Below are positions 6,426 to 64,000 of a stretch of 64,000 bases of DNA, piece by piece (within the stretch, counting starts at the first letter, position 1; every line of letters starts with the position of its first letter). A program made the translations under genes and the position numbers. The notes beneath the pieces are model-generated. The model saw nothing but the letters and a program-made list of their open reading frames with translations. It did not search any database and had not been told where the DNA came from. This DNA is from Anodontia alba (taxonomy: Eukaryota > Mollusca > Bivalvia > Lucinida > Lucinidae): the NCBI GenBank assembly GCA_964016985.1, contig OZ024824.1, positions 117,386,951 to 117,450,950 of the forward strand, read 5' to 3'.

Positions 6426-7290
6426 CAAGAGGGCCAAGATGATGCTGTATTGCTCACCTGATGAACAGACAAGTTTCAAAGCAATTGGCCTTTCAGTTCA
6501 AGAGAAGTTCAATATAGATTTTCAAGATGGTGGCCATCTTGGATTTCCAATCAGAATGATTTTAGCTACTTTTGTCCTACATGTCATCTCTATACTTCAA
6601 ATGAAGTTTGGAGTCAACTGGCCTTTTGTTTCAGGAGAAAAAGTTCAAAATAGATTTTCAAGATAGCTGCTGTGGCGACTATCGGATTTCTGATTGGATA
6701 GATTTTAGCTATTTTTGATCTGCAAGTCACCATGATCAAGTCAAGTGGCCTTTTTTCTCAGGAGAAGAAGGGCAAAATACGTTTTCAAGATGGCCATCTT
6801 GGATTACCAATCTGTTTTAGCTATTTTTGATCTACAAATTGCCCCAATATTTCCTAACAAGTTTTAAGTCAATTGGCCTTATGGTTCAGGAGACGAAGAG
6901 CAGAATAGATTTTTAAGATGGCCTGCTTGGATTTCTGATCAGAAAGATTTTAGCTATTTTTGATCTGTAAGTTGCCCCGATACTTCCTACCAAGTTTTGT
7001 GTCAATTGGCTTTTTGGTTCAGGAGAAATACTGCAAAAAAGATTTTTAAAATGGCAGACATTGCGGCCAATTTGGATTTCCAATCGAAACAATTTTAGCT
7101 ATTTCAAGTCACCCCAATGCTTCCAACCAAGTTTCAAGTCAACTGGCCCAGGGGTGTAGGAGAAGTAGGCTTTTAAAGCAAATTGTTGACGCAGCACGAC
7201 GGACAATGGAGGAGGGACAATGCACAATGCTCGGCAGACATCGACTGACCACAATAACTCACCTTGAGCACTTCATGCTCAGGTGAGCTA
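6426..7290 (+). mobile_element. Tandem-repeat element, family A (A1)
   Basis: Head CAAGAGGGCCAAGATGATG...GCTCACCTGATG. Then about six diverged units of roughly 135 bp, of the type CAAGATGG...GCCATCTTGGATTTC, GATTTTAGCTATTTTTGATC, ACCAAGTTTCAAGTCAATTG, TTCAGGAGAAGAAG. The tail is a GAC/GGAC-rich stretch and the hairpin CTCACCTTGAGC...GCTCAGGTGAGCTA followed by AAAA. No protein-coding capacity. The copy-2 version is 39097-39988. Confidence 0.8.
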
Positions 7291-7489
7291 AAAATGTGCC
7301 TGTGGTGCATGCACAGACAGCAAAAGCCCAGATCAGACTGCACATCTGTTCAAGTTCTTTGCTGACTCCTGCCAGAATCATTGGACACATTTGTATAATG
7401 TAGAGCAATGGAGAGCAAAGGCCTGGGCAAGACCATGCACATGAGCAGGATGATGCTGCATACATTCTATACTATTTGCTCAGGCCTGT

Positions 7490-7850
7490 CAATCTGAATA
7501 CATACGGTAAATATGGTATATGTTATTTATCTAAACATACACATGTGCTGGTATTTCCTCAGAACTGTCTTAGATAATTCCAATGAAAGCCCCTTTAAAC
7601 AAACAAGCAACCACTGATCAGAATATACTTACCATATTTACTGTATGTATTCTGGGCAGACAGGCCTAAACAAACAATGTAGACCTAGATGAGATGCCAG
7701 AGAACACGACGTCTCATCAGGAGCTACACTGTTTGCCACTGAAACAGCAATTTTAGACACATCGGGTAGTAAAGTATACTTGTTCAAATTTTAGAACCAG
7801 TATGGTAAGGAGTTGAGGTGTCCGAATTCTTAAGGTTAATATGGTAACTC
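7490..7850. repeat. Hairpin repeat with long AT-rich inverted arms
   Basis: Inner hairpin at 7672-7738 (CAATGTAGACCTAGATGAGA and complement) of the P2-like type. It is preceded by a second, larger inverted repeat: CATACGGTAAATATGGTATA near 7500 and its complement near 7635-7650. This gives two nested foldbacks. Duplicated at 40195-40550. Confidence 0.6.
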
Positions 7851-7894
7851 GATCAAGATAAAATCATAACTAAGGTAGCAATATAAACCCATTT

Positions 7895-8272
7895 CTAATG
7901 CACTCGCGTATGTAACGCGACGTCTGATTGGATAACGTCAAAAATTTGCGACGGTATATTCTGCGATATACTGTCGCAAATCCGACGTCATCACGTAACG
8001 TCGCTTCTCATTGGCTGGCATTTGGTTTTACGCAGCTCACAGCACTTGTCGTTTTGTACAAACAGTACATTTTTTCAATAGAAAAAATGAATAAATGCAT
8101 TAGAATGGGGATAACTGCATCAAATTTGTCATTTGGGGAGGTAAATCGGCGGTTTTACGGTCGCAAATTACGTTTTACGGCTCCGCTGACGCGTCGCCGT
8201 AAAACGAAATTTCCGACCGTAAAACCGCCGATTTACCTCCCCAAATGCCAAATTTGAAAGCAGTTATCCCCT
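7895..8272. mobile_element. Hairpin-ended insertion, absent from copy 2
   Basis: Copy 2 reads directly from CCCATTT into TTGACTGAATACACTCC (40580-40600), while copy 1 has about 378 extra bases. These begin TCTAATGCACTCGCG and end GCAGTTATCCCCTAA. The last 170 bases form a long near-perfect hairpin (GGGGATAACTGC, GGGGAGGTAAATCGGCGG and complements). The insertion sits in a T-run with no long target duplication. The class is uncertain; a Helentron-like non-autonomous element is one option. Confidence 0.7.
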
Positions 8273-8312
8273 AATTTTGACTGAATACACTCCCCAAACT
8301 ACAGTTCATTCT

Positions 8313-8545
8313 CATTATCTCAAACATCAAGGGACCAGTGCCCAGTTGTCCAAAGCATCATTGGCTTGTTAATGACAAACTCCTCTATAAATATTGTAGC
8401 CAAGGTATTTTCAAATACATTGATATTTTTGCTGCAAAAATGTGAGCAGCTTTTGCAATGCAAAAACTACTCCCTTTTTTCAGCATAAATATCAATGTGT
8501 TTGCCATATTTCAAGATAGAAATTTGAATGTCACATTAAATAACA
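8313..8545. other. Segment present only in copy 1
   Basis: Copy 2 joins CAGTTCATTCT directly to TTGTTAAGTTTTGA (near 40625). The missing 233 bases carry no hallmark of a mobile element, so deletion in copy 2 is as likely as insertion in copy 1. Confidence 0.5.
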
Positions 8546-8897
8546 ACTTTGTTAAGTTTTGAATAACTGAGCCCTAATGTAATTTGAGATAAAAGAAGTT
8601 GAAATACAAGGAATATAATAAACTAAGTCAATATTACCTTTTACTTCATTTGAAATAAACAGAAGTTTGAGTTATCAGTGATTCTAACACTCCTCGCCTA
8701 TACAGCCAATGGTTAAACTCAGTGCTTTAATTCTGCAATAAATCACTGGGCCGAAGCATGTGATGCTATCTGGCGCCATTCCAATGTCATCTTGACACTT
8801 TGCTGACATCAGTCCTCGTTTCCACAATGTAAGACGGTGTAACATTGTTTTTCTCGCATCAACAACGTAAGAAATGCATGTAAACATCAGTGTTCGG

Positions 8898-9895
8898 AAA
8901 AAAACGAAAAACAGATTTTCAAGATGGCCACCATAGTGGCCATCTTGGATTTCCAATCAGAATGATTTTAGCTATTTTTGATCTACAAGTCACCCTAATG
9001 CTTCCTAACAAGCTTCAAGTCAGTTGGCCTTTTGGTTCAGGAGAAATAAACGAAAAATAGATTTTCAAGACGGCCATCATAGCGGCCATCTTGGATTTCC
9101 AATCAGAATGATTTTAGCTATTTTTGATCTACAAGTCACCCCAATGCTTCCTACCAAGCTTCTAGTCAATTGGCCTTTCTGCTCAGAAGAAGAAGCAGAA
9201 AATAGAATTTCAAGATTGCTGAAATAGCAGCCATCTTGGATTTCTGATCAGAACGATTTTAGCTTTTTTTTTATCTACAAGTTACCCCGATGCTTCCTAC
9301 CTAGTTTCAAATCAACTGGCTTTTCAGTTCAGGAGAAGAAGCGAAAAATAAATTTGCAAGAGGGCCATAGTGACCATCTTGGATTTCAGATTGGAACAAT
9401 TTTAACTATTTTTGATCTACAAGTCACCCTGATTCTTCCTACCAAGTTTCAAGTCAAACTGGCCTTTTTGTTCAGGAGAAGAAGTGAAAAATAGAGTTTC
9501 AAGATGGATGCCATGGTGGCCATCTTGGATTTCAGATTGGAACGATTTTAGCTATTTTTTATCTACAAGTCACCCCTATGCTTCCTACTAAGTTTTAAGT
9601 GAATTGGCCTTTCGGTTCAGGAGGAGAAGGGAAAAACAGATTTTCAAGATGGCCGCCATGGCGGCCATCCTGGATTTCTGATTGGAACAATTTTACTTAT
9701 TTTTGATCTACAAGTTACCCCGATGTTTCCTACCAAGTTTTGAGTCAATCTATACAATGGTTCAGGAGGAGTTGTTGAAAATGTGAAAAGCTGATGAAAG
9801 GATGGATGAACGGATGGACAGATGGTTGGACAGACTGACGGACAGATGGACGACAGACTACAGGCGATTGCATAAGCTGACCTGGAGTATATTAA
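8898..9895 (+). repeat. Family A tandem array (A2)
   Basis: About seven units of the family A monomer. Several contain the full palindrome in which CAAGATGGCCGCCAT is followed by its own complement (clearest at 9645-9672). It ends in a GGATGGACAGATGG-type stretch at 9795-9865 but lacks the GGTGAGCT hairpin, and no standard head precedes it. Counterpart at 40985-41965. Confidence 0.8.
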
Positions 9896-9956
9896 CCCTT
9901 TTAACATTAAAAATCAGAACAGAGAAAGGGTTTTACAAATATTATGGATCCAATAG

Positions 9957-10444: not shown

Positions 10445-10462
10445 GCATACAGAGATACATGT

Positions 10463-10820: not shown

Positions 10821-10875
10821 AACAATACGCAATTAGGAGAAAAGAGCGAGGGAAGGGAGGTGGGACGATAAATAC

Positions 10876-17786: not shown

Positions 17787-20700
17787 CAAGAGCTCTGCCA
17801 AGCGGGGCATTATACGCCCATGGCAAGTAATACGATGTAGCATATAAACTGGCTCCTGCATAATTCAATGCTCTGGATATAAACTGTAAGTGGAATTACA
17901 AAAAAAAAAAAAAAAATAAAAAAACAAAAAAAATTCATTGGGGCATATCTCTGCTGATATTTAGTGAACTGTAACCTAAGGTTCCAAGCTGGCCCAGAAA
18001 GTAAAGAAGAAGTGACTTCTCCCTCCTGGGAAAATAGGGAGGTTTGCTGCTTCTAGGGAGAAGTGCTTTCTGATGGAGGACACACCACAGAAGCATGGCT
18101 ATATTATAAGCTCATATAAGCTGATTTGTTTTTCCTATACTTCAATATCGGACCAAACAATAACAAAACAAAAATAAACAACCAAAAAAAAAAAAAAAAA
18201 AATGCTGCAAGAAATTTTTTTGTAAACCTTTAACTTGTTTAATACTGATTTTATTTTTTGTTCTTCAAGGCAGCCAAATCAGAAGAGTATTAAAAAAAAA
18301 AAAAAAATCAAAAAGAATTATGTATTTATAAAGATTTAATAATGACAACCTTTCCTTGCAAGTCTAATAAAAGAAGACGTTTAAAAAAAAAAAAAAAAAA
18401 AAAAATCAATATCTTGCCCATATGACCAAAACTTTAGTTATTTGTAAAAAATATACCTATTATATAATAAAATTTGCACGCTATTACCTCTAACAAAATG
18501 CTGCGAAAAGTTTACAACAAGAGGACCATGATGGTCCTATATCGCTCACCTGAGCAAACAGGTTTGCATACTTAATGTTGAAGTTTCAGCCAAGTCCACT
18601 GCTCTAAGATTTATGTATAAATTTTACAACCACGACGAATTATGACGGCTTGAACAAACTTGGTAGAGGGTAACCAAAGGAACATTCCTGCCAAGTTAAA
18701 CTGAAATCGCTTCAGTGGTTTCTGACAAGACGATTTTTAAAGTTTTCTATTTAGATATAGAGGGAAAATAAGCCCCACCCCCTAGCAGGCATGTTTTCTA
18801 ACAAATCAGGATTGGTTGAACATTCTTGGTAGAGGGTCACCAAAGCATTATTGAAATTGGTCAGGAGGTATTTTAAAAGAAGAATTTTAAAGTTTTCTAT
18901 ACAGATATATACCGAAAATAAGCCCCGCCCCCTGGAGGCCAAGTTTTTTGACGTATCATGAAGGCTTGAACCATCCTGGTAGAGGGTCACAAAAGCAACA
19001 TTCTTGCCGAGCTACATTGAGCTCGGTCCAACGATTTCTTACGAGCAGATTTTTAAGTTTTTTATATAGACATATAGGGACAAATAAGCCCCGCCCCCTA
19101 GCGGCCATGTTTTTGATGATCATGACAGCTTGAACAACCTTTGTAGAGGGTCAACAAGGAAACATTCCTGCCAAGTTATATTGAAATTGGTCCATTCGTT
19201 TCTGACAAGATTTTTTAGTTTTCTATATAGATATATAGGGAAAATAAGCCCCACCCACTAGCAGCCATGTTTTTTGACAAATCATGATTACTTGAACAAT
19301 TTTGGTAGAGGGTCACCAAGAAAACATTTTTGCCAAGTTGTAATGAAATCGGTCCTGTGGTTTCTGAAAAGAAGACTTTTAAAGTTTTTCTATATAGATA
19401 TATAGGGAAAATAAGCCCCGCCCCCTGGCTGCCCTGTTTTATGATGAATCATGATGGCTTGCATAACCTTGATAGAGGGTTACATAAGAAACATTTCTGC
19501 AATGTTAAATTGAAATCAGTCCAGTGGTTTCCGACAAGAAGATCATTAGAGTTTTCTATGTAGATATACGGGGAAAATAAGCCCCGCCCCCTAACAGCCA
19601 TGTTTTTTGACAAATCATGATCGGTTGAACAATCTTGATAAAGGGTCACCAAGGAAACATATCTGCCAAGTTATACTGAAATCGATCCAGTGATTTCTGA
19701 CAAGAAGATTTTTTCAAGTTTTCTATATAGATATATATAGGGAAAATAAGCCCTGCCCCTACCAGCCATGTTTTGACAAATCATGACGGCTTGAACAATC
19801 TTGGTAAAGGGTCACCAATGAAACGTTCCTGCCAAGGTATAGTGAAATCGGTCCAGTGGTTTCTGACAAGAAGATTTTTTCAAGTTTTCTATATAGATAT
19901 ATAGGGAAAATAAGCTCCACCCCCTTGCAGCCATGTTTTTTGACAAATTATGATTACCTGAACAACCTTGGTAGAGGGTCACCAAGGAAACATTTTTGCC
20001 AAGTTATAATGAAATCGGTGAAGTGGTTTCTGACAAGATGATGTTTCAAGTTTTTCTATATAGATATATAGGGAAAATAAGCCCCGCCCACTGGCGGCCA
20101 TGATTTTGGACAAATCCAAATGGCTTGAACAATCTTGGTACAGGATAACCAAAGGAACATTTCGCCCACATTATATTGCAATCATTACAGTGATTTCTGA
20201 CAAGAAGATTTTTTAAGTTTTCTATATAGTTATATAGGGAAAATAAGCTCCGTCCACTGGCAGCCATGTTTTTTGACGAATCCAAATGGCTTGAACAGGT
20301 TCACCAAAGGAACATTTCTGCAAAATTATACTGAAATCGGTCCAGTGGTTTCTAACAAGAAGATTTTTAAAGTTTTCTATATAGATATATAGGGAAAATA
20401 AGACCCCCCCCCCCCCCGCCCCCCCACACCCCCGGCGGCCATGTTTTTTGACGAATCCAAATGGCTTGAACAATCTTGCAACAGGATCACCAAAGGAACA
20501 TTTCTCCAAAATTATATGGAAATCTGTCCAGTGGTTTCTGACAAGAAGATTTTAAAAGCTTTCTATACAGATATATAGTGAAAATAAGCCCTGCCCCCTG
20601 GCGGCTATGTTTTTCGACAAATCCAAATGGCTTGAACAATCTTGGTACAGGATCACCAAAGGAATATTTCTGCAAAATTATATGGAAATCGGTCTAACGG

Positions 20701-22628
20701 TTTATGACAAGAAGATTTTTAAAGTTTTCTATATAGATATATAGGGAAAATAAGCCCCGCCCCCTGGCGGCCATGTTTTGTGACAAATCCAAATGGCTTA
20801 AACAATCTTGGTAGAGGATCACCAAAGGAACATTTTTGCAAAATTACATTGAAATCAGTCCAGTGGTTTCGGACAAGAAGATTTTAAAATTTTTCTATAT
20901 TTATTATATAGCGAAAATAAGCCCCGCCCCCTGGCGGCCATGTTTTTTGACGAATCCATATGGCTTGAACAATCTTGGTAGAGAATCACCAAAGGAACAT
21001 TTTTGCAAAATTATATCGAAATCGGTCCAGTGATTTCGGACAAGAAGATTTTTAAAGTTTTCTATATAGATATATAGGGAAAATAAGCCCCGCCCCCTTG
21101 CGGCCATGTTTTTTGACAAATCCAAATGGTTTGAACAATCTTGGTAGAGCATCATCAAAGGAACATTTTTGCAAAATTATATTGAAATCGGTCCAGTGGT
21201 TTCAGACAAGAAGATTTTTTAAGTTTTTAATTAAAAAATCTATTTTTAGCTCCTGTGACCTAGATATGCAACGGACTGGAACCATTTGAACAACTTTGAA
21301 AAAGGACCAACCAAGGATCATTCCTGTGAAGTTTGGTCAAATTCCCACCAGTGGTTTAGGAGAAGATGTTGTTTAAAGATTGTGGACAGACGGACATCCG
21401 GATGACAACGACCCCGCCGTCGCCGACGGACGGTGAGTGATCACAAAAGCTCACCATGAGCCTTCGGCTCAGGTGAGCTAAAAACTTTCAAAGGGGCATA
21501 AATCTGCAAATATTTGGTGCACTGTAACCTCGAAATAATATGTGCTGCTCCACATCATCCTGTAACTATTTATGAAGTTTCAGCTTGATCGGATGTAAAC
21601 TGTAGGAGGATTTAGCCGAAAACGAAAAAAATAATAGAAATTTTCAAAGGGGTTTAACTCTGCTAATATTTGGTGGACTGTAACCTTGAAACAATATGCG
21701 CTGCTCCACATCATGGTCTAACTGCACATGAAGTTTCAGCTTGATTGGATGTAAACTGTAGGAGGATTAAGCCGGAAACGAAAAATTAGTAGAAACATTC
21801 AAAGGGGTATAACTCTGCTAATATTTGGTGGACTGTAACCTTGAAATAATATGCATTGCTCCACATCATGGTCTAACTACAAATCAAGTTTCAGCTTGAT
21901 CGGATGTAAACTGTAGGAGGAGTTAGCCGGAAACAAAAAGTCTACTGAAATTTTCAAAGGGGCATAACTCTGCAAATCTTTGGTGGACTGTAACCTCGAA
22001 ACAATATGCGCTGCTCCACATCATGGTCTAACTATATATGAAGTTTCAGCTTGAAAAATTACATCGTAAAATGTAGGAGGAGTTAACCGGAAACGAAAAG
22101 TTTACAGAAATTTTCTAAGGGGCATAACTCTGCAAACATTTGGTGGACTGTAACCTAAAAATAATATGAGCTGTGCCACATCATGGTCTAACTATATACT
22201 AAGTTTCAGCTTGATCGGATGTAAACTGTAGGAGGAGTTAGTCTACTGAAATTTTCAAAGGGGCATAACTCTGCTAATATTTGGTGGACTGTAACCTCTA
22301 AACAATATGCACTGCTCCACATCATGGTCTAACTATATATGAAGTTTCGGCTTGATCGGATGTAAAATGGAGGAGGAGTTAACCGGAAATGAAAAGTTTA
22401 CAGAAATTTTCAAAGGGGCATAACTCTGCAAATATTTGGTGGACTGTAACCTTGAAACAATATGCACTGCGCCACATCATGGTCTAACTATGTACCAAGT
22501 TTCAGCTTAATCGGATGTAAACTGTAGGAGGAGTTAGCTGGAAACAAAAAAGTTTACGGACAGACAGAGGGACCGACGGACGCCATACCCTGTAACATAA
22601 TACGTCCCATTTTTCAAACGGGCGTATA
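17787..22628 (+). mobile_element. Tandem-repeat element, family C, carrying a nested family B element
   Basis: Head CAAGAGCTCTGCCAAGCGG followed by the inverted repeat GGGC-ATTATA-CGCCC. The core monomer is about 155 bp (CAAAGGGGCATAACTCTGC, TTTGGTGGACTGTAACCT, GAAGTTTCAGCTTGATCGGA, GTAGGAGGAGTTAGCCGG) and runs 21487-22550. The tail is GGACAGACAGAGGGACCGAC and the hairpin ATACGTCCC...GGGCGTATA, then AAAA. Head and tail share TATACGCCC as an inverted repeat. Copy 2 shows the empty site TTTACAAAAACATATGAAG at 43660-43675. A second head is at 27428. Confidence 0.85.
18518..21480 (+). mobile_element. Tandem-repeat element, family B, nested in the C element
   Basis: Head CAAGAGGACCATGATGGTCC then ATCGCTCACCTGAG. 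About 16 monomers of roughly 165 bp follow, with GCGGCCATGTTTTTTGAC, GGCTTGAACAATCTTGGTAG, GAAATCGGTCCAGTGGTTTC, ATATAGGGAAAATAAGCC. The tail is a GACGGAC-type stretch and the hairpin AGCTCACC-ATGAGCC-TTC-GGCTCA-GGTGAGCT, then AAAAA. The empty site is kept in the related C element at 28111-28135 (AAAAGTTTACAAAAACATTC). Confidence 0.87.
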
Positions 22629-22657
22629 AAAAGGTATGAAGAAAAATATTACCATTT

Positions 22658-22890: not shown

Positions 22891-23134
22891 ATCTGAAACA
22901 AGCAAATTCAGTGAATTAATGTCCCCACCTTTCAAGAAAAAAAAAAAAAAAAATCCTGAAAATGAAGAAACAACATCTGAAGAAAATACTAAAATTAGAA
23001 CCTAAAATGCATAACTTCAGACCATCTCCAAAGCATCTGCAAAGTTTCCAATTGATCAGTCAAAAACTCTCGGAGGAGTTGTGCACACAAGGTATGGACT
23101 TCAGATACTAAGTAAAACAAAAATCTAAAAATAA

Positions 23135-26553: not shown

Positions 26554-27109
26554 AAGTAGCATACAACATTATATACTTTCAGAAGAAATCGCTCTGACCA
26601 ATTTTCTTCCTTTTTCTTCCTGGAAGTTGTCACCTGAAGTTGCCAGTACGGACTGGAGCGGACTCGATTATATCACATCCACAAAATTTAGGTCTAACTA
26701 ATAAGCATCAAGAAGTGACAAGAATCAAGTGTCAATAAGTGTCACAAACATATTTTGCTGATTAGTTTTATTTCTTATTGATTTACTTTCCTTTACTGAT
26801 ATATAATGTGCAATCTACAATATACATTTCAGGAAAAGTCTACATTACAGATTGCTATAATTTGTACTTTTCCATTTGTATTTTGTTAAAAAAAAATGCA
26901 TACTTTTCAAAAACAAACAGTGGAAAGAAAGCATGTCTGTATGTGCTGTGTACTTTAAACAAGAGATAAGAAGCTGTTAAAGAGAGATAAGACAGTGTAG
27001 AGAGTTGTGTTGACGACAAATTTAATGAAAACAAAAACAAATCTTTAAAAGGCAAATAAAAAAGACAATCTCAGTTTTACAATTGCAGTCAATGCTTTGT
27101 TTGTGTTGA
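26554..27109. other. No gene recognised
   Basis: AT-rich unique-looking DNA. Short open frames lack codon bias and splice context. Confidence 0.4.
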
Positions 27110-43227: not shown

Positions 43228-43269
<42 letters not shown>

Positions 43270-48419: not shown

Positions 48420-50320
48420 TCAATTCAACTTAGGGTTTGGATTTTGGAACAAAACAATTTTAGCAATTCTGAAACTCTGTGTCACTGTGATGCCTCCCAT
48501 CAAGTTTCAGCTCAATCGGACTTAGGGTTTGAAAAAAGATGTCATTTGAAGAATTTCAAAATGGCCGCCATGGTGGCTATCTTGGATATCAGAACACAAT
48601 GATTTCAGCAATTCTGAATCCCTGTGTCACTGTGATGCCTCCCATCAAGTTTCAGCTCAATCACACTTAGGGTTTAGGAAGAGATGTCATTTGAAGAATT
48701 TCAAGACGGCCACCCTGGCAGCCATTTTGGATATCGGAACGGAACAATTTGAGCAATTTTGAATCTCTGTGTCACTCTGATGCCTCCCATCAAGTTTCAG
48801 CTTCATCAGGGCTTAGGAGGACATGTCATTTGAAGAATGTCAAGATGGCCACCATGGTGGCCATTTTGTATATTGGAACGGAACCATTTGAGCAATTTTG
48901 AATCTCTGTGTCACTGTGATGCCTCCCATCAAGTTTCAGCTCAATTGGATTTAGGGTTTGGGAGGAGATATTGTTTGAAGAATTTTAAGATGGCCACCAT
49001 GGCGGCTATCTTGGATATCGGAATGGAATGATTTTAGCAATTTCGAATCTCTGTGTCACTGTGATGTTTCCCATCAGGTTTCAGCTCAATCGGACTTAGG
49101 GTTTGAGAGAAGATGTCGTTTGAAGAATTTCAAGATGGTGGTCATCTTGGATATCAGAATGGAACAATTTTAGCAATTTTGAATCTCTGTGTCTCTGTGA
49201 TTAAGGTTTAGGAGGAGATGTCGTTTGAAGAATTTCAAGATGGCCACCGTGGGGGCAATTCTGGATGTCAAAATGGAAAGATTTTAGCAATTTTGAATCT
49301 TTGTGGCACTGTGATGCCTCCGATCAAGTTTCAGTTCAATCAAAATTAGGGTTTGAGAGATGATGTTGTTTGAATAATTTCAAGATGGCCACCATGGCCA
49401 CCATAATGGATATCAGAATGGATCCATTTTAGAATCTCTGTGTCACTGTGATGCCTCCCATCAAGTTTCAGCTCAATTCAACTTAGGGTTTGGATTTCGG
49501 AAAAAAACAATTTTAGCAATTCTGAAACTCTATGTCACTGTGATGCATCCCATCAAGTTTCAGCTCAATCAGACTAAGGGTTTGAGAGGAGATGTCATTT
49601 GAAGAATTTCAAAATGGCCACCATGGCAGCCATCTTGGATATCAGAATAGAATGATTTTAGCAATTCTGAATCGCTGTGTCACTGTGATGCCTCCCATCA
49701 AGTTTCAGCTCAATCACACTTAGGGTTTAGGAAGAGATGTCATTTGAAGAATTTCAAGATGGCCACCCTGGCGGCCATTTTGGAAATCGGAACGGAACAA
49801 TTTGAGCAACTTTGAATCTCTGTGTCACTGTGATGCCTCCCATCAAGTTTCAGCTCAATCAGACTTAGGGTTTAGGAGGAGATGTCATTTGAAGAATTTC
49901 AAGATGGCCACCATGGTGGCCATTTTGGATATTGGAATGGAACCATTTGAGCAATGTTGAATCTCTGTGTCACTGTGATGCCTCCCATCAAGTTTCAGTT
50001 CAATTGGATTTAGGGTTTGGGAGGAGATGTCATTTGAAGAATTTCAAGATGGCCACCATGGCGGCTATCTTGGATATCGGAGTGGAATGATTTTAGCAAT
50101 TTTGAATCTCTGTGTCACTGTGATGCTTCCCATCAGGTTTCAGCTAAATTGGATTTAGAGTTTGATAGAAGATGTCGTTTGAAGAATTTTCAAGATGGTG
50201 GTCATCTTGGCTATCAGAATGGAACAATTTTAGCAATTTTGATTCTCTGTGTCACTGTGATTAAAGTTTAGGAGGAGATGTTGTTTGAAGAATTTCAAGA
50301 TGGCCACCGTGGGGGCCATT
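48420..50320 (+). repeat. Higher-order duplication inside family D
   Basis: A block of about 1.06 kb with a distinctive unit order (short GGATTTCGGAA unit, ACACTTAGGGTTTAGGAAGAG unit, TTTGAGCAA units, TGGTGGTCATCTTGG unit, ATTAAGGTTTAGGAGG unit) appears at about 48420-49270 and again at about 49480-50320. Confidence 0.75.
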
Positions 50321-50763
50321 TGTAGGGTTTGGGAGGAGATGTCGTTTGAAGAATTTCAAGATGGCCACTATGGGGGCCATCTTGGACATTGGAATTGAAC
50401 AATTTTAGCAATTTTGAATCTCTGTGTCACTGTGATGCCGCCCATCAAGTTTCAGCTCAATTGGAATTAGGGTTTGCAAGGAGATGTTGTTTGAAGATTT
50501 TAAGATGACCATAATGGACATCGGAATGGAACGATTTTAGCAATTTTGAATCTCTGCATTACTGTGATGCCTCCCATTAAGTTTCAGCTCAATCGGACAG
50601 GGTTTAAGAGGAGATGTCATTTGAAGAATTTCAGAATGGAACGATTTTAGCAATTTTGAATCTCTCTGTCACTATGATGCCTCCAATCAAGTTTCAGCTC
50701 AATTGGACTTAGGGTTTAGGAGGTTATGTTGTTTGAAGAATTTCAAGATGGCTACCCTTGCGG

Positions 50764-51989
50764 CAGGGCTCTAGAAATTTTGAAATCTGAATCGGTCCAG
50801 CCGATGATGATGACGTCATCAATGAGCCCATTTCCAAAAATATATATATATATATATATATATATCACCTATCACCTCAACTCCGTAATATGAAGGAAGT
50901 CCGGGTATAACGAGCATGATCAAAGCTGGCGTCATCAATAAATACAGTCATGTATGTCAAAAGAAAGGAAAAAAAAAAAAAGACGGTTTTGTTGTTATTT
51001 CCACCTCCACAGGGTTTTCCTAAACTATTTATAAACAACTGATTCCCGTCTTGTATAAGCGCGAAGATGGCGGGAAACAGGAGAGACGTAACGAAACGAC
51101 TTTCATGGACCTAATTAGGTCTAATAATAAAGGCCTGCACTACGGCTGGTTTTGCAGTTTTCAATGTTTCAAGATTTGACCAGATTGCCTAAATTTTAAG
51201 CACTGACCAATCTTGTCTAGCACAAGTGGTGCATTACTTATTTTTACCGTGAAATCTACCTTGAATACTCGCGTGTTACGGCAATCAACAAAAAAAAAAA
51301 AAAAAAAAAAGAATCAATCAATAATACCCAGATCAGACGCCGTTGTATGCGACATCTGATCAAGACGTACATGGTTTGGGAATTAATTTATCAAATCTGG
51401 GACCGACAAACCGTGTTGAGCAAAACAAAAAAGAAGAGGAAGAAAACGGGTGCATTCAAGCGGTGCATTCTTTTATCGCTCTCAATAAAGCGACCTTTGA
51501 TCTTTTGGACACGCCGACTGCACCTGGATGTTTTGCAGTCTCAGTGTATTCACACGTGTCACACAAACGGATTAATTATCAGACTACCGTTACTAATGAT
51601 TCGTGTTAATCGCTTGTTTACCGCACAAAGGTCAGTGAAGTGTTGATTTTTTGACAATGTTTGGATAATGACGTAATTAATTTGTGCTGCGGTAGGTTGC
51701 CGTTATTCATCTGCCTCTCCAATATACATGTCAAATGACCGTTTAGAGCCTTTTAACTACGATAATATCGCATTTAAAAGATGTGCAGACTTTGTCAGTT
51801 TGGGAAGACTTGACCGTTTGTGATTTTTTAGACATCATTGATTCGTGAAAATTGGTTGGTTGGGGGAAAATGGGGTTCAAGGCACAAACCTGTTGGACCG
51901 ATTTATTAGTGTTTTGGGGTGTTTGAAATCGGTCCAGAATTCTTAATTTCGGTCCAGACCAGCTATTTTTCCGGTTTTCCGGAGCCCTG
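50764..51989. mobile_element. hAT-like non-autonomous element
   Basis: Inverted ends CAGGGCTCTAGAAA and, complemented, CAGGGCTCCGGAAAA. Exact 8-bp target duplication CCTTGCGG at 50756-50763 and 51990-51997. The 8-bp duplication and CAGGG start are hallmarks of hAT elements. No transposase frame. GGTCCAG occurs several times near both ends and may be a subterminal binding repeat. Inside are an (AT)n run at 50842-50866 and a P2-like hairpin at 51328-51371. Confidence 0.9.
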
Positions 51990-52053
51990 CCTTGCGGCCA
52001 TCTTGGATATCAGAAAGGAACGATTTTAGAAATTTTGAATCTCTGTGTCACTA

Positions 52054-53388
52054 CGAGGGTCGTGCAAAAAGTTCTGTCACTAACAGGCTTCCTTAGTTTT
52101 ATCCCATGTATATTTTAAAACACTTCACTGCACTTGAATGGTGTGGTGAATAGCTATCTATACCCGTTTATTTCGTGCAACTTGCTTTCCAACTGACCGA
52201 GTTATTTCAAATTGAAATAGATGCAGTCATATACAAACTGACCAATTTACTTGTTACATTGGAACATGGACCAGAAGACTGAAATTTGTAGCTATATTAA
52301 ATGCCGCGTTAGGCTTAAGATTCAAAGCAGATATTTAATGAATTGTGTGGTATATATGGACCTCAGACCATTTCAATGCGCATAGTTTTTAGGTGGGTTA
52401 AAGCTTTTAAAGCTTGGGAATTTTCTGTTGAATATGATACCCATCCTGGAAGGCCTAAAATCTCTGTTACCAAGGCTAACATCGCTGCTGTAAAGATTGT
52501 GGTCGAACAGGATGCACGATTGTCTGTCAAAGATATAACTAGTTGTACTGGCATATCAGAAGGCAGTGTGCAAACAATTCTGAAAAAGCGTTTGGACCTG
52601 AGAAAGGTTTGCGCTAGGTGGGTACCTCATTTGCTCACTGAGAAGCAAAAGACACAACACCTTAAATGTGCCCAGGAACTTTTGAAAACATACAAAGGCT
52701 GTAATAGTCGGGTTATTTCTAACTTGCTAACAGGTGATGAAATCTGGGTGCACATGTTTGAGCCACAAAGAAGGGCTGATAATAAGCAATGGAAGTGAAA
52801 AGATCAAAAACGCCCATGTATTGCCAAGAGAACCATAAGTTCGAATAAGATGTTGTATGCAATTTTCTTTAATTCAAGTGGGCCAGTCGTTCAAGTGCCT
52901 TGTCCATCTGGTTATACAGTCACTGGCCGATTCTACAAGAATTCTGTACTGAAGAGAGTGAAAGAGTTTTACAATAAGAAAAGACCAAGCAAAGGATGGT
53001 CAGGAGTCCACCTTTTACATGACAACGCCTCCTCTCATAAGTGTGAGGTTGTCTTTTTTGGCTTCTGAAAAGGTGAAAGTTTTAAACCATCCACCTTATT
53101 CATCTGACCTGAGTCCCTGTGACTTCTTTTTATTTCCAAGGCTTAAGAAAATGCTTTCTGAAAATAAGTATACGTCTGGAAGTTCTCTTGGCAGCACTAT
53201 TTATCAGTGTCTCCAACAGATACCAAAAGAAGGCTATTTATCTGCTTTTCATGACTGGGTAAAAAGGTTACAAAAATGTGTTTCAGTAAAAGGGGAATAC
53301 TTTGAAGGTTTGTAATAAAAATATGTTTGATAAAACGTAGCACTGAAGTAATCCAAACCCAGTGACAAAACTTTTTGCAGGACCCTCG
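52054..53388 (+). mobile_element. Mariner element, full length
   Basis: 1335 bp with inverted ends CGAGGGTCGTGCAAAAAGTT and, complemented, CGAGGGTCCTGCAAAAAGTT, flanked by TA at 52052-52053 and 53389-53390. Removing the element and one TA restores a D unit (GTGTCACTATGATGCCTCC); the same CACTATGATGCC variant occurs intact near 50669. Confidence 0.95.
52266..53314 (+). pseudogene. Mariner transposase, broken
   Basis: Starts near 52266 with MDQKTEICSYIKC. The frame then changes before 52343, where the main N-terminal part begins (helix-turn-helix region with FRWVKAFK, HPGRPKIS, and TGISEGSVQTIL). The first catalytic Asp is in LTGDEIWVHMFEP, the second in HLLHDNASSHK near 53010, and the third in PPYSSDLSPCDFF near 53100, which is the DD34D pattern. 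It ends KGEYFEGL at 53314. Lesions: a frameshift upstream of about 52370, a TGA at 52796-52798, and a frameshift between about 53040 and 53070. All catalytic residues remain recognisable, so inactivation is fairly recent. Inferred inactive; the ends could still be mobilised in trans. Confidence 0.93.
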
Positions 53389-53924
53389 TATGATGCCTCC
53401 CATCAAGTTTCAGCTCAATCGGACTTAGGGTTTAGGAGGAGATGTTGTTTGAAGAATTTCGAGATGGCTGGCCTGGTGGCCTTCTTGGATATCAGAAAGG
53501 AACGATTTTAGCAATTTTGAATCTCTGTGTCACTGTGATGCCTCCCATCAAGTTTCAGCTCAATCGGACTTAGGGTTTAACGGGAGATGTCGTTTGAAGA
53601 ATTTCAAGATGGCCGCCCTGAATATTGGAATGGAACGATTTTAGCAATTTTGAATATCTTTGTCACTGTGATGCCTCCCATCAAGTTTCAGCTCAATCCG
53701 ACTTAGGGTTTGGGAGAAGATGTCGTTCGAAGAATTTCAAGATGGCCACCATGGCGGCCATCCTGGATATCGGAACGGAACAATTTTAGCAATTCTGAAT
53801 CTCCATGTTGCCACAATGCCTCTTACTAAGTTTCAGCTGAATCCAACTTATGGTTCTGGATATACTGCACAAAAACCATGCAGGTTTTTTTTTGGCACGT
53901 TTTTTTCTCCGTAACAGAAACACA

Positions 53925-56900
53925 TGAAACAATTAAAATATATAAGGAATATACTAAAATGGACTGAAAAAGAATGAAACAAATGAAACAGACCAATAAC
54001 AGTTCTCACTGATGGTCAGTTTCATTCATTTCATTTGTTACGAAACGGGATGAAACAGTTCAAACACCTTGATCAGTGCTTGTTATGAAACAGGGTATAA
54101 CGAAATGTAACAATGAAACAGATACATTTTTTTATAAACCCATTTCTGTTTTGTAACAAATGAAACGAATAAGATATAGAGGAAAATCTCTGAAACAGGA
54201 TGAAACAGACCAAACAATTTGAAATATGCTCGTTACGAAACAGAGTGAAACGAAAAGAAACGATAAAACATACATCTTTTTTTTATTTCATAAACCCATT
54301 TCTGTTTCGTAACAAATGAAACGAATAAGATATAGAGGAAAAACTCTGAAACAGGATGAAACAGATCAAAAGACTTGTTCAAAGCTTGTTACGAAACAGG
54401 GTGAAATGGAATGAAATGATGAAACATACATCTTTTTTTTTTTTATAAACCCATTTCCGTTTCGTAACAAATGAAACGAATAAGATATATAGGAAAAAAC
54501 TCTGAAACAGGATGAAACAGACCAAAAAATTTGGAATATGCTCGTTACGAAACAGAATGAAACAAAATGAAACGATGAAACATACAGAAAAGTATCTGTT
54601 TCATTGTTACATTTCGTTTCACCCTGTTTCATAACAAGCACTGACCAAGGTGTTTGAACTGTTTCATCCTGTTTCAGAGTTTTTCCTATATATCTTATCC
54701 ATATCATTTGTTACGAAACAGAAATGGGTTTTGAAAAAAAAAAAAAAAGATGTATGTTTCATCATTTCACCCTGTTTGGTAACGAATATATTTCAATTTT
54801 TTTGGTCTGTCTCATCCTGTTTCAGAGTTTTTCCTATATATCTTATTCGTTTCGTTTGTTATGAAACAGAAATAGGTTTATTATAAAAATATATGTCTGT
54901 TTCATCGTTTCATTGCGTTTCGCCTTGTTTCATAACAAGCACTGACCATGGTTTTTGGTCTGTTACATCCTGTTTCAGAGTTTTCTCTATATATCTTGAT
55001 CATTTCATTTGTTACGAAACAGAAATAGGCTAAAAAAGATATTTCTTGGCTAAGAAAAGTATCTGTTTCATTGTTACATTTTGTTTCACCCTGTTTCGTA
55101 ACAAGCACTGACCAAGGTGTTTGAACTGTTTCATCCTGTTTCAGAGTTTTTCCTATATATCTTATTCGTTTCATTTGTTTATTAAAAAAAAAAAAGATGT
55201 ATGTTTCATCGTTTCATTCTGTTTCACTCTGTTTTGTAACGAGCATATTTCAATTTTTTTGGTCTGTTTCATCCTGTTTCAGAGATTTTCCACTATATCT
55301 TATTCGTTTCATTTGTTATGAAACAGAAATGGGTTTGTAAAAAAAAAAAAAGATGTATGTTTCATCATTTCATTTCGTTTCACTCTGTTTCGTAACGAGC
55401 ATATTTTAAATTTTTTGGTCCGTTTCATCCTGTTTCAGGTTTTTTCCTATTTATCTTAATCGTGTCATTAATGTTACGAAACAGAAATGGGTTTATAAAA
55501 AAACAAGAGGCCCACGGGCCACGGTTCGCTCATCTGAGTGACATAGCCACTGCAGACATGCAGATGTTCCCAATAATATATGCAAAGATTCAGCCATAAG
55601 GCATCCTCGGTTTTGGAGAATAAGATTTTTAAACGTTTTTTCCCATACAAATGCATAGGGAAGCAAACTTGTATGACCATTATTTTAGCAACTTTGGTAG
55701 ACCCCCCTGTCCCCGATGATTTAAGCAAAGATTCAGCCCCAAGGCATCCTCGGTTCTGGAGGAGAAGATTTTTGAAGGTTTTTACCATATATGGGCATGG
55801 CGGCCATCTTGGTCAATAAACTGTGACCATTTTAGCAATCTTTCATTCCCCCAACCTAAGGAGGCTCCATATGAAATTTGTGCAAGATTGGCACAGAGGA
55901 GAAGTCGTTTGAAATTCTGAATATTTTTCCCATACAAATGCATAAGGAAGCAAAATTGACCTCACTGTAAAAAGGTCAAATGTCAATGTACGACCATTAT
56001 TTTAGCAACTTTGGTAGACCTCCAGTTTCCGATGATATATGTAAAGATTCAGCCACAAGAAATCCTCGGTTTTGGAGAACAAGATTTTTAAAGGTTTTTT
56101 CCATACAAATGCATAGGGAAGCAAACTTGACCTTGCCGTAAAAAGGTTATATATTAATATACAACATCTATTTTAGCAATTTCGGTAGACCTCCCGTCCC
56201 GAATGACTTATGCAAAGATTCAGCCCCAAGGCATCCTCAGTTTGGAGAAGAAGATTTTTAAAGGTTTTTACCATATATGGGCATGGCGCCATGGCCATCT
56301 TGGTCAATGAACTGCGACCATTTTAGCAATCTTTCATTCCCCCAATCTAAGGAGGCTCCATATGAAATTTGAGCAAAACTGGCCGGGAGGCTCCAGAGGA
56401 GAAGTCGTTTGAAATTCTGAATATTTTTCCCATACAAATGCATAAGGAAGCAAAATTGACCTCATGGTAAAAAGGTCAAATGTCAATGTACGACCATTAT
56501 TTTAGCAACTTTGGGAGATCTCCAGTTTCCGATGATATATGTAAAGATTCAGCCACAAGGCATCCTCGGTTTTCGAGAAAAGATTTTTAAAGGTTTTTCC
56601 CATACAAATGCATAGGAAAGCAAACTTGACCTTGCCATAAAAAGGTCAAATGTCAATATACAACATTTATTTTAGCAATTTTGGTAGACCTCCCATCCCC
56701 AATGACTTATGCAAAGATTCAGCTCCAAGGCATCCTCGGTTCTGGAGAAGAAGATTTTTAAAGGTTTTTACCATATATGGGCATGGCGGCCATCTTGGTC
56801 AATGAACCGTGACCATTTTAGCAATCTTTAATTCCCCCAACCTAAGGAAGCTCCATATGAAGTTTGAGCAAAATTGGCCCAGAGGCTCCAGAGAAAAAGT

Positions 56901-57926
56901 CATTTGAAATTCTGAACATTTTTCCCATACAAATGCATAAGGAAGCAAAATTGACCTCACCATAAAAAGGTCAAATGTCAATGTACGACCAGTATTTTAG
57001 CAACTTTGGTAGCCCTCCAGTTTCTGATGATATATGTAAAGGTTCAGCCATAAGGCATCCTCGGTTTTGGAGAACAAGATGTTTAAAGGTTTTTCCCATA
57101 CAAATGCATAAGGAAGCAAACTTGACCTTGCCGTAAAAAGGTCAAATGTCAATATACGACATTTATTTTAGCAATTTTGGTAGACCTCCCGTCCCCAATG
57201 ACTTATGCAAAGAATCAGCCCCAAGGCATCCTCGGTTCTGGAGAAGAAGATTTTTAAAGGTTTTTACCATATAAGGGCATGGCGGCCATCTTGGTCAATG
57301 GACTGCGACCATTTTAGCAATTTTTCGTTCCCCCAACCTAAGGAGGCTCCATATGAAATTTGAGCAAAATTGGCTCAGGGGCTTCAGAGGAGAAGTCGTT
57401 TGAAAATGTTAACAGATGGACTCACGGACGGACGGACGCACAGACGCACGGATGGACGACGGACGAAAAGTGATCACAATAGCTCATCCTGAGCATAGCT
57501 CAGGTGAGCTAAAAAAAAAAGATGTATGTTTCATTGTTACATTTTCTTTCACCCTGTTTCGTAACGAGCTTTGAACAAGACTTTTGGTCTGTTTCATAGG
57601 TTTTCCTATATGTCTTAATCGTTTCATTTGTTACGAAACAGAAATGGGTTTATAAAAAAAAATAAAATTGAAAGAATAGTATCTGTTTCATTGTTTCATT
57701 ACGTTACGCCTTGTTTCGTAACCAGCAGAGACCTAGGTTGTAGCTCTGTTTGATTGCGTTTCGCCTTGTTTTGTAACAAGCACTGACCATGGTTTTTGAT
57801 CTGTTTCATCCTGTTTCAGAGTTTTCTCTATATATCTTGATCATTTCATTTGTTACAAAACAGAAATGGGCTTATAAAAAAAAAAAAAAAAATTCTTGGC
57901 TAAGAAAAGTATCTGTTTCATTGTTA
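53925..57926. repeat. GAAAC-rich satellite, two orientations
   Basis: Units of about 155 bp: AAATGAAACGAATAAGATAT, CTCTGAAACAGGATGAAACA, GCTCGTTACGAAACAG, poly-A/T, TTTATAAACCCATTTCTGTT. From 53930 to about 54585 this strand is used; from about 54595 onward the complementary strand is. The array is interrupted by the element at 55504-57511 and continues to 57926, then again at 63695-63824. Confidence 0.85.
55504..57511 (+). mobile_element. Tandem-repeat element, family E
   Basis: Head CAAGAGGCCCACGGGCC then TTCGCTCATCTGAG. Compound units of about 500 bp include CATACAAATGCATAAGGAAG, TTGACCTTGCCGTAAAAAGG, AAGATTCAGCCCCAAGGCAT, CCATATATGGGCATGGCGGC and GAGGAGAAGTCGTTTGAAAT. The tail is GACGGACGGACGCACAGACG and the hairpin AGCTCATCCTGAGC...GCTCAGGTGAGCTA, then A10. 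It is inserted in the A-run of a GAAAC satellite unit. Confidence 0.87.

Positions 57927-61705: not shown

Positions 61706-61763
<58 letters not shown>
61706..61763. repeat. (CA)n microsatellite
   Basis: Uninterrupted CA repeat of about 28 units. Confidence 0.97.
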
Positions 61764-61767
<4 letters not shown>

Positions 61768-62599
61768 CAAATGCGTTGTCTATGTCCCAAATCTTTTATT
61801 ATGTTGTTAACTTCTTTCAATCTTTGTTTATTCCAGTGACTCACATGGCGTCGAGGTTATTTTTCATTTTTTACAGTGAAAATTTAAAACTGAACAAAAT
61901 AATTTAAAATCACCATAGGAATATTTGAGCTTTGCTTTGATATTTTTTTCTGTGGACTGCAAAGCGTTTCAGCTATAGATTTCACCGGCCAGTAGATTTA
62001 GGATAGTCTAAAATGAGATGAATGACAGGTATTTTCAAATGATTGGCACGTCTTATCAGGTGAATGACATGTCATATCAGATACTATAATAGGACTTCAC
62101 AGGATTATTAAAAGAAAAAAAGTAAAAATAGAACACTGAAAATATTAAGAAGTAAGTATATTTTTTTAACACATTTGGAATGTCAAAATGCAATGCAAAA
62201 TAATCCTATTCAGTCAATTTTTTTTTCAACGCTTAGCACTCTGGGTAATATTTTCAGCAGACGACATTTTAAACTATCACAAATTTTCGTTTGAAAAATG
62301 CTAATAAATGAGATATTGAAGAAACCATTTAGGATACATATGTGTAAAAGACAACATATATGTAGATATAAAAAGTTTTAAAATGGGGTAAATAAAACAA
62401 ATGCTACTGAAGGTAATGTTACAAACGAAATTATTCAGATATGTTGAAGTCCAAAAAAATGGATACCTGCTTATCATACTTTATTGTTATTATTATTTTT
62501 ATTATTATTTACATGAATGATAATGAAAGCTTAAAATCAATCATATTTATAGCTGAAACCTGTGCAATCCACACAGAGTGATAAATATATTTCCTAGCC

Positions 62600-62652
62600 A
62601 CTGTCAACTTGATTTATGCATCAAAATCTCAATACGTGTTTGATTATGGATA

Positions 62653-62684
<32 letters not shown>

Positions 62685-63480
62685 AAAAGAATATCTTTGG
62701 ATATTATATAAATTATGAATTAAAATTTTTCTGGAAATTAATAAATTGATTTTTTTCACAAAAAAGGTACTTTGAAATTTCATCCCAAATTAAAGAAATT
62801 AACAAAGATACACTTATGAAATTTCCATCCAAATATAAATGAAGAATAATATGACTTCCATTATGTCTGGTGTTGTCTAAATTACAAATAAACAAGCAAT
62901 AAATCCGTTAATACTTCATGAGTTTTTTCTCATCCAATCAGAAATAAGCCGAAAAAGACTTGGAGGTGCACCTGCATGTCATTAAATTTCCAATAAACAG
63001 TACATGGAATGAGCATTTCCTGTATCTCATCCTCCTTAAGCAATACATAGGCTAGCTAATATTATGCTACATTTCAAAGATCAAAAGATTAAATTTAGAA
63101 CAAAAGGAAATAGTATAATAAATAAATAAAAAAATGTAAATGAAATTGGAAAATATCATGATATTATACACATTAATTACTCCAGATTCATGTAGCATAG
63201 AGTATTTGATGATAATTAATATGAGTCTTCATTTCCCCACTAAAATAATTTTGTTATGGATATTTATTAGAATTGTCTCACTGAGGCAAAATATTATGAA
63301 AACGCAATCTTGAAAGGGGAACTCCCGTATATGGTAATATAGTGAGGTGTTACATCTGCAAAACCGTGACTTGAATAGTTATTATAATTAAGTGAAACTG
63401 AAAAAAAAAAAAAAAAAAAAAAAAATCTTAAATAACTTGAGTCCGCGGGGTTTTGATTGACTGAAGATGCAAACGATAAA
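62600..63480. other. AT-rich interior with (GAAA)n, no gene
   Basis: (GAAA)n at 62655-62690, and a degenerate P1 MITE apex near 63262-63290 (TTTATTAGAATTGTCTCACT GAGGC). Another degenerate P1 apex lies at 60672-60722. A poly-A run ends at 63424. No supported gene. Confidence 0.5.
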
Positions 63481-63824
63481 ACGTTTGCAACCAGACAGGG
63501 TTTCCATGACAGCGTTTTCCGAACGCTAATTTGATTGGCTAATATTCGAAACGCTTGAAACGTTTCAGAAACGATGATCTGACTGGCTAAAACCGCAAAG
63601 GATCATTTAAGCGTGGTCCAAATGCTGCGTTTCCAAATCGTTAATAAGCGTTTCGCATGCGTTTCCGTGGACAAGAAAAACGCTATTGCCACTGTACATT
63701 TCGTTTCACCCTGTTACGTAACAAGCACTGACCTGGGTGTTTGAACTGTTTCATCCTGTTTCAGTGTTTTACCTATATATCTTATTTGTTTCATTTGTTA
63801 CGAAACAGAAATAGGTTTATAAAA

Positions 63825-64000
63825 CAAGAGGGCCATGATGGCCCTGTAACGCTCACCTGAGCAACATAGCACTTTGAGAGCCTGATCTAGAACTGATCAA
63901 GGCAAACATTCTGATCAAAGTTCAAAATGATTATATTAACAAGTAAGACAATGTAGCATGTCTAATGGACTGTGCAATAAAGGTCAAGGTCAAATATGGA
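63825..64000 (+). mobile_element. Tandem-repeat element head, runs off window
   Basis: CAAGAGGGCCATGATGGCCC then AACGCTCACCTGAG, directly after the TTTATAAAA of a GAAAC satellite unit. This is the same position in the satellite unit that the family E element occupies at 55504. GGTCAAGGTCAAATATGG at the end suggests E-like monomers to the right. Confidence 0.75.

Follow-up and report, generated by a model that had tools for sequence, protein, structure and literature searches.

The window studied here, a stretch of 64,000 nucleotides from Anodontia alba, carries many tandem arrays with different monomers between similar ends, and raises the question of whether one mobile system dispersed them and whether their cores have been exchanged between those ends. 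We report shared ends that pair on the same strand, movement of the elements as units, insertion into A/T-runs, and several families. The elements are very probably HINEs, i.e. non-autonomous rolling-circle transposons of the Helentron type, with a short satellite-like array inside each. This kind of element is already known, the closest being Cg_HINE, and the members described here are new. The first-pass annotation had suggested a Helentron-type mobile system with hairpin ends, A/T-rich targets and internal satellites, which the end anatomy and the empty sites support.

Head-like sequence is present at all eleven positions where heads had been placed (6426, 17787, 18518, 23135, 27428, 33204, 36508, 39097, 43745, 55504 and 63825). 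Nine of these belong to a class composed of CAAGAGG, a hairpin and GCTCACCTGA, the degraded ones including 33204, 23135 and 43745, and a second head type, CAAGAGNTCTGCC...TATACGCCC, is common to 17787 and 27428. Tails were found at six of seven proposed coordinates, 3045 being without one: four are of the GCTCAGGTGAGCTAAAA type (7290, 21480, 39988 and 57511), one is ACGGGCGTATAAAA (22628) and one GGCAGGGGCATAAAA (26553), the last having a mate at 24751 that was absent from the earlier list of heads. The ends are thus shared, but as at least three classes and not as one common set. Moreover, 6426 and 39097, previously counted as separate elements, are a single insertion doubled by segmental duplication (4388-7894 vs 37002-40590 and 8547-10611 vs 40625-42676; identity 94.5-94.8%). 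That each element has its own monomer was overstated, since detectable similarity connects the consensus monomers of N, D, H and A, and likewise those of B and F. The orientation implied by "head" and "tail" is reversed, the tail being the Helentron 5' end and the head the 3' end; strands in Table 1 are given in the Helentron sense.

Table 1. Elements and element parts in the window
Coordinates	Strand	Feature	Details
6426..7293	(-)	N-family element, both ends	head 6426, tail 7277-7293; monomers 133-145 bp; same insertion as 39097
7197..7290	(-)	Helentron 5' module, example	GTCC-type microsatellite (here GGAC, eroded), inverted repeat, subTIR, T-run (here A-run)
8897..9783	(-)	N array followed by GGAC microsatellite	intact ends not found; copy = 40974-41860
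17787..22631	(-)	B-family element, both ends	155 bp monomers; A element nested inside
18518..21483	(-)	A-family element, nested in B element	166 bp monomers; empty site in second B copy
23134..24692	(-)	H2-type element	head 79% to H head, core H-related, tail not found; stops at F element
24751..26554	(-)	F-family element	monomers about 151-157 bp
27428..28749	(-)	Second B copy, without tail	changes from B to A monomers at about 28262-28276, no A head; holds 18518 empty site
33205..36138	(-)	N-family element, one-sided	head degraded, N array long, tail not found
36508..36773	(-)	D-family head and short D-core stretch	–
39097..39991	(-)	Duplicate of 6426 element	inside segmental duplication
43745..53855	(-)	D-family head and 145 bp array	array interrupted by two other insertions; tail not found
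55504..57514	(-)	H-family element, both ends	sits in A-run of 156 bp GTTTCAT/GAAACAG repeat
63825..64000	(-)	K-family head	window end cuts element; also in A-run of GTTTCAT repeat

Read on the minus strand, the elements begin with a T-run, the subTIR AGCTCACCTGA, its inverted repeat, a GTCC/GTCY microsatellite, a spacer and the tandem array, and after the array end with the subTIR TCAGGTGAGC, a palindrome and CTCTTG|T. The 5' GTCY-type microsatellite is the GGAC/GACGGAC stretch of the tails, which is GTCC on the other strand. Canonical Helitrons (Helitron1) have 5' TC and 3' CTRR ends and an A|T target; by eye the ends here differ (5' T-run-AGCTCACC, 3' ...CTCTTG|T) and this assignment was rejected. 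For Helentrons and HINEs, subTIRs of at least 11 bp that are identical within a family are described (PMC4067079). Compared by eye, GCTCACCTGA and TCAGGTGAGC agree over 10 bp in 6426, over 12 bp in 18518 and with one mismatch in 55504; the B-class pair is TATACGCCC and GGGCGTATA, with one mismatch further in for 17787; and the F-class subTIR is weak (about 7 bp plus mismatches, also by eye). Hence subTIRs are present, yet the 11 bp rule fails in some copies.

The tail hairpin has 89.5% of cells paired vs 14-40% in slid controls and 85.6% in column shuffles, none of 500 being as high as observed, and at three pairs both sides are changed, each time in a single sequence. The 3' palindromes in the heads are GGGCC-ATGAT-GGCCC and GGACC-ATGAT-GGTCC; among 100 heads listed the variable position is Watson-Crick paired in 95, G-U in 3 and unpaired in 2 (by eye, and representing two main lineages that are not independent). 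Covariation in the head palindrome was not significant in 14 sequences (70.2% of cells paired vs 70.4% in shuffles), partly because the palindrome is in a different register in the heads of H and D. An A directly precedes CAAGAG in 18 of 18 copies listed and may belong to the element. T-rich/TT targets are seen as A-run empty sites for 18518 and 55504, while the right-hand A-run of the sampled copies is partly a product of selection, because the search 17-mer ends in AAAA. Owing to the A-runs at the ends, insertion points are blurred at base resolution, and a short duplication (a few bases) may be hidden in these runs.

As chance control we used 10 random sequences with the dinucleotide make-up of the window. 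The tail pattern (3 mismatches allowed) gave 0-1 matches in these, as did the head-B, tail-B and tail-C patterns, and the subTIR pattern (1 mismatch) gave 11 in the window, 4 being the tails' own arms, vs 0-2. The short AAGAGGNCCA core alone is unspecific, with 9-17 random matches and matches within the arrays, and therefore a head was counted as real only where head, hairpin and subTIR are combined. The genome (1.86 Gb) was then searched with reversed patterns as controls, all of which gave zero. The exact tail 17-mer occurs 19,180 times (9672 + 9508), a head pattern fitting the N, A and K heads 6,375 times (3229 + 3146), and the B-class tail 52 + 46 times. Pairing of heads and tails within 10 kb, which had been proposed as a check, was borne out: of 38 exact heads in the first 12.34 Mb of C1, 23 are followed downstream by an exact same-strand tail and none by one on the opposite strand. 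Likewise, upstream of 20 sampled tails a head was present on the same strand in 17 cases vs 1 on the opposite strand. Outside this genome, the tail 17-mer gave three matches in IMG/VR, one identical stretch in three contigs, which were judged to be chance since their context is unlike any tail; a literature search on six end strings brought up four papers, none of them about molluscs.

Three insertions have empty counterparts. The 200 bp of joined flanks of the 18518 A element align end to end to 28022-28226 (93.7%), those of the 17787 B element cross the junction by 28 bp at 43544-43697 (85.7%), and those of the 55504 H element (up to 185 of 200 bp) cross it at eight other repeat places (74-90%) among the matches listed. 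The nested insertions and these empty sites show that the elements moved as units. They also contradict, at all three insertions, the reading that the ends are mere common motifs or that the pattern is due to segmental duplication of satellite blocks. This reading draws on the one true segmental duplication in the window and on the unspecific AAGAGGNCCA core, and is hardly credible given thousands of copies vs zero in reversed controls and the same-strand pairing of the ends.

The same sites bear on cut-and-paste transposition. MITEs have terminal inverted repeats and a target-site duplication, and MITE-like or foldback DNA transposons with internal satellites would likewise have short inverted motifs at their ends and A/T targets; Pearl, a related element, was originally named a MITE (PMC7492417). 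Here, the inverted motifs lie subterminally and differ between the two ends, with an inverted repeat and GTCY-type microsatellite at one end and a palindrome at the other, and the empty sites are without target-site duplication, ambiguous A-runs aside, which makes this origin very improbable. For the HINEs, as we interpret them, a Rep/helicase from a Helentron elsewhere in the genome would recognise the subTIR and palindrome, and the element would be copied by rolling circle and then inserted between Ts. The arrays may be passengers that grow via rolling-circle slippage or unequal exchange. Since several families have nearly identical ends, a recombinant with one family's end and another family's array would stay movable; families would mostly be inherited whole, with occasional exchange.

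The earlier proposal that cores are swapped between common ends was too sweeping for individual copies, in which the association is tight, and is supported by family-level discordance and one hybrid copy. Head, core and tail match in 19 of 24 copies with both ends, and in 12 of 17 once the suppliers of the library (six window copies and L026) are left out. Such concordance is what strict co-inheritance predicts, where every head/core/tail set has a single origin followed by divergence and cores are never exchanged. Consistent with it, another K copy (in L044) is concordant, the window N, B and D heads (2-3 occurrences each) retain their core, with the 27428 B copy then entering A monomers, and in oyster a cluster is described as consistently tied to one flank pair (PMC7492417). 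Against it, the heads of N, A and K differ little (local scores 28-32), whereas their cores have no detectable similarity (z 1.0-1.4), and the closest cores, N and D (z 65), have unlike heads (score 19). For head vs core similarity the Mantel r is 0.03 (2105 of 5040 permutations as high) across seven families, which are few for such a correlation; r is 0.30 in the six families without K (118 of 720), which favours co-inheritance, and -0.09 in a five-family subset (69 of 120). Together with the monomer similarities, the value of 0.03 makes co-divergence of ends and cores unlikely as the sole account. Specifically, L016:7737-9516 has the head and spacer of H joined to the array and tail of N, as the modular model predicts, and in both L013 and L020 this spacer occurs with an N piece, after which come an H array and H tail. 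The family-level discordance and this hybrid indicate that exchange of cores between ends happened, and we regard strict co-inheritance as rather unlikely.

With respect to an autonomous partner, no Rep or helicase match was found among the seven window ORFs scanned. In the genome there are 127 Rep (PF14214) matches vs 0 in 14 control genomes, there is an open frame with both Rep and PIF1 helicase, and a Rep-bearing 6.3 kb element has subTIRs, a 3' hairpin and a ...CTTGT end; these observations favour the Helentron reading. At 8 of the 127 matches, most viewed in part, no autonomous element with GCTCACCTGA ends was found, and none of Rep groups I, II, III and V and parts of two more (our labels) has these ends. 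A search for inverted pairs around the Rep frames found the group III ends already known and, for groups I and V, nothing convincing. On C1, a K element lying near a broken Rep copy (about 0.3 kb away) was considered as partner and proved to be a complete, separate HINE alongside.

The window elements, of several families, all share one orientation. In the first 12.3 Mb of C1, tails less than 20 kb apart are on the same strand in 36 of 37 pairs, compared with 26/32 at 20-50 kb and 39/70 at 50-100 kb, and all 14 tail clusters linked at 10 kb are strand-pure (6.0 expected). The signal loses significance in a runs test after thinning of tails closer than 10 kb (z -0.8), and the coherence may therefore stem from nesting, from tandem insertion or from local duplication. 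A local excess of A-runs (232 vs 164 T-runs in the flanks of 20 sampled loci) was judged too weak for 97% agreement. A tentative alternative, which we consider possible but doubtful, is that insertion reads local chromosome polarity, e.g. replication-fork direction or transcription, so that nearby unrelated families share orientation; if so, element strands could map this polarity. Strand coherence would, if confirmed between unrelated copies, be an unusual trait of rolling-circle insertion in an animal.

Among known systems, DINE-1/HINE elements and Helentrons (Thomas et al. 2014, PMC4067079) are described with the same subTIRs, 3' palindrome, TT target and variable terminal Ts, and their non-autonomous members may contain tandem repeats; similar-ended autonomous partners were found there, in contrast to the eight Rep matches viewed here. 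Pearl, DTC84, MgE and Cg170/HindIII of bivalves (PMC7492417, PMC8268682, PMC12628747, PMC11136912) are alike by description in having about 160 bp repeats in Helentron-like elements, and the one-sided "intermediate" arrays described in these sources resemble the 33205 and 43745 arrays. Cg_HINE of Crassostrea gigas (Vojvoda Zeljko et al. 2020, PMC7492417), by its described anatomy, shares the subTIRs, inverted repeat, GTCY/GTCC microsatellite and 3' palindrome, arrays of satellite-like repeats (mostly 140-180 bp) in one orientation, T-rich/TT targets without target-site duplication, and some families whose flanks are related but whose repeats are not. Differences are the longest array (29.3 monomers described there vs about 48 monomer lengths here, in a single painted block of 6956 bp at 43809-50764 of the 43745 D array), the hybrid of one family's end with another's array and tail, shown here unlike in the account of Cg_HINE, and local strand coherence, of which the parts of that paper available to us make no mention. 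The autonomous partner of Cg_HINE is described as unresolved in oyster, and the question of which autonomous Helentron moves bivalve HINEs now becomes a defined search, 127 Rep matches against three end classes. Finally, the oyster picture of satellites riding on Helentron-type elements extends to a second genome, with more than 19,000 exact copies of one end.

The tandem-repeat elements of the window (37.4% GC), in a genome of 1,862,613,979 bases and 317 contigs, are real, well-formed and of an already known kind, namely HINEs, non-autonomous Helentrons that carry satellite-like arrays (cores). The structural descriptions in PMC7492417 and PMC4067079 give the order of parts as 5' subterminal inverted repeat (subTIR), inverted repeat, GTCY-type microsatellite, tandem repeats, 3' subTIR, palindrome and TT target, with no target-site duplication according to that in PMC7492417. 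The window elements match this order on the minus strand, and therefore the "head" and "tail", which the first-pass annotation had named as start and end, are reversed: the head is the Helentron 3' end and the tail the 5' end. Apart from this orientation its modular reading, cores between common ends, is right in part. All 11 heads that it listed are present and six of its seven tails were confirmed, with no tail at 3045; the partner head of the 26553 tail, at 24751, had been overlooked. The listed elements at 6426 and 39097 are copies of one insertion inside a 94.5% segmental duplication.

Three end classes were found, GCTCACCTGA (families N, A, H, H2, D and K; all family names were assigned in this analysis), TATACGCCC (B) and ATGCCCC (F), and in every class the head motif is the full or partial reverse complement of the outer arm of the tail hairpin. 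The specific end patterns gave 0-1 matches in random sequences matched for dinucleotide composition; the short AAGAGGNCCA core alone is no evidence, since it gave 9-17. The end motif TCAGGTGAGC is similar to a 5' splice donor (CAG|GTGAG). Across the whole genome the exact tail 17-mer occurs 9672 + 9508 times, a head pattern fitting the N, A and K heads 3229 + 3146 times and the B tail 52 + 46 times (contigs C1 to C19 without C11), each with a reversed control of 0.

Heads and tails pair at sensible distances, as had been proposed. In the first 12.34 Mb of contig C1, 23 of 38 exact heads have a same-strand exact tail within 10 kb downstream (21 of these pairs are spaced 1.6-4.3 kb; one tail is common to two heads), three have a same-strand tail upstream, and opposite-strand tails are absent within 10 kb of all 38. 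Twenty sampled 10 kb stretches, each ending in a tail (L numbers below), hold 17 same-strand heads upstream of the tail versus one on the opposite strand, with at least one head in 15 of the 20; the two samples were taken at the beginning of a single contig and are thus not random across the genome.

Empty sites show that the elements have moved (see the table). For the 6426 element, a search with joined flanks found no empty site. The base preceding CAAGAG is A in 18 of 18 listed copies and may be part of the element; selection accounts in part for the A-run on the right of the sampled copies.

Coordinates of features in the window, unless a contig or sampled stretch is named
Position	Feature	Observation
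4388-10611; 37002-42676	Segmental duplication	94.5-94.8% identity; holds N element and N array
10611-16797	Presumably a DIRS-like retroelement	In one copy only of the duplication; RVT_1 (2.4e-11) and sub-cut-off tyrosine-recombinase match
16797-17789; 42672-43668	Matching stretches	84%
17787-22631	B element	Joined flanks pass junction by 28 bp at 43544-43697 (85.7%); weaker case
18518-21483	A element nested in B element	Empty site in second B copy (27428): 200 bp joined flanks match 28022-28226 end to end, 93.7%
22664-22740; 27120-27400; L016:5630-5945	tRNA-like (SINE-like) stretches	By eye; one within H array in L016
28262-28276	Core junction	B monomers pass directly into A monomers
28748-29425; 52056-53389	Two mariner-like elements	By eye (inverted ends, TA)
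52343-52798	ORF in mariner-like region	No Pfam match at E 0.01
33724-33806	First N monomer after 33205 head	Best outside match of L013, L016 and L020
36760-36830; 38341-38454	...TTTTGAGCAGAAATA... repeat	
43809-50764	D array	One painted block, 6956 bp
53919-55503; 57511-57888	156 bp GTTTCAT/GAAACAG repeat	Both orientations, large inverted structure; A-run hosts two elements (55504, 63825)
55504-57514	H element in A-run of 156 bp repeat	Joined flanks align over junction, for as much as 185 of their 200 bp, at 8 other repeat places, 74-90% (among the first 10 matches listed)
C15:43003400-43019400	Helentron frame	Flanked by inverted copies of ...TTTTGAGCAGAAATA... repeat

Consensus monomers were compared by local alignment with 100 dinucleotide shuffles for each of 21 pairs. 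Six pairs had no shuffle as high (z: N-D 65, N-H 22, H-D 21, B-F 18.6, A-H 13.9, D-B 8.3), D-F had two (z 2.9) and the other 14, including all K pairings, had 7-74. The one reverse-strand control, N-D, is also elevated (z 10.4), which is probably due to the self-complementary GGCCGCCATNGCGGCC stretch. By these scores most cores are diverged relatives rather than unrelated satellites, and the view that each element carries a different monomer is overstated.

Exchange of cores between ends appears limited. In the window and the sample together, 24 copies have a tail downstream of a head. Head, core and tail are of one family by best match in 19 of them (N 4, A 5, H 5, K 3, B 1, F 1); because the search library came mainly from six window copies and L026, these agree by construction, and excluding them leaves 12/17. 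Hence the alternative that cores are always specific to one subtype nearly holds, but not wholly, given the hybrid in L016 (7737-9516): after an H head and spacer comes an N array that leads to an N tail, and no other end intervenes. The same spacer and a piece of N recur in L013 and L020, where the array and tail that come next are of the H family. Of the remaining four of the 24 copies, L021 and L024:7836 combine an H-like head and core with a tail closest to an A entry (assigned manually to subtype H2), L014:3270-4554 has an N array and N tail, without an N head, enclosed by K ends, and in L018 an N-like head and H-related pieces are separated, by other DNA of about 5 kb, from a core related to H and a tail like that of A. 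Head similarity seems not to predict core similarity across families (Mantel r 0.03, 2105/5040 permutations as high for seven families; r 0.30, 118/720 without K; r -0.09, 69/120 for five GCTCACCTGA families), which is suggestive rather than strong because the heads span only about 40 bases.

The genome has 127 matches to the Rep domain (PF14214), a few pairs of which are pieces of one copy, versus 0 in 14 control genomes. Two 6.3 kb Rep-bearing copies (99.3% identical; interrupted frame, partial helicase match) have GCACGGCGC near the 5' end and GCGCCGTGC, a hairpin and ...CTTGT at the 3' end, a plan like that of the window elements in different letters. On contig C15, Rep and PIF1 helicase lie together in one open frame 1661 codons long. 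Among the eight of the 127 Rep matches inspected, most only partly, no autonomous relative with its own GCTCACCTGA ends was found.

Unexpectedly, neighbouring copies tend to share a strand at short range. For the first 100 tails of C1 (0.1-12.3 Mb), same-strand pairs number 36/37 below 20 kb, 26/32 at 20-50 kb, 39/70 at 50-100 kb, 36/91 at 100-200 kb, 68/202 at 200-500 kb and 213/373 at 500 kb-1 Mb (6/1000 permutations as high); at long range the values scatter in both directions, with no excess at 50-200 kb. The first 100 heads give 6/6 within 20 kb and 6/9 at 20-50 kb, from few data. Runs tests gave z -2.3 for tails and for heads; thinning at 10 and 30 kb gave -0.8 and +0.6 for tails, so that the tail effect lies mainly below 10-30 kb, and -2.1 and -1.6 for heads. 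Linking at 10 kb gives 14 clusters, all of them strand-pure (6.0 expected; 0/5000 shuffles as high); with linkage at 20, 30 and 50 kb the strand-pure clusters number 16/17, 17/20 and 17/23. Duplication of a single copy does not account for all of this, because strand-sharing neighbours are of different families in the window, L014, L016, L017 and L024; L025 (D array, opposite strand) and L019 (N fragment of 54 bp) are counter-examples. The plain candidate causes are nesting and tandem insertion. The flanks of the 20 loci, in element sense, have 232 A-runs versus 164 T-runs and an AT skew of +0.032 (positive in 13/20, p 0.017), with no significant GC skew. Our literature search found no account of such strand coherence for Helentrons; for bacterial transposons, a fork-linked orientation bias is described in PMC5371812.

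With regard to array size, the D array has about 48 monomer lengths (gaps <120 bp bridged), longer than the maximum of 29.3 monomers given for the oyster survey in PMC7492417. This array and that at 33205 are one-ended, as in the intermediate form described in PMC12628747 and PMC8268682.
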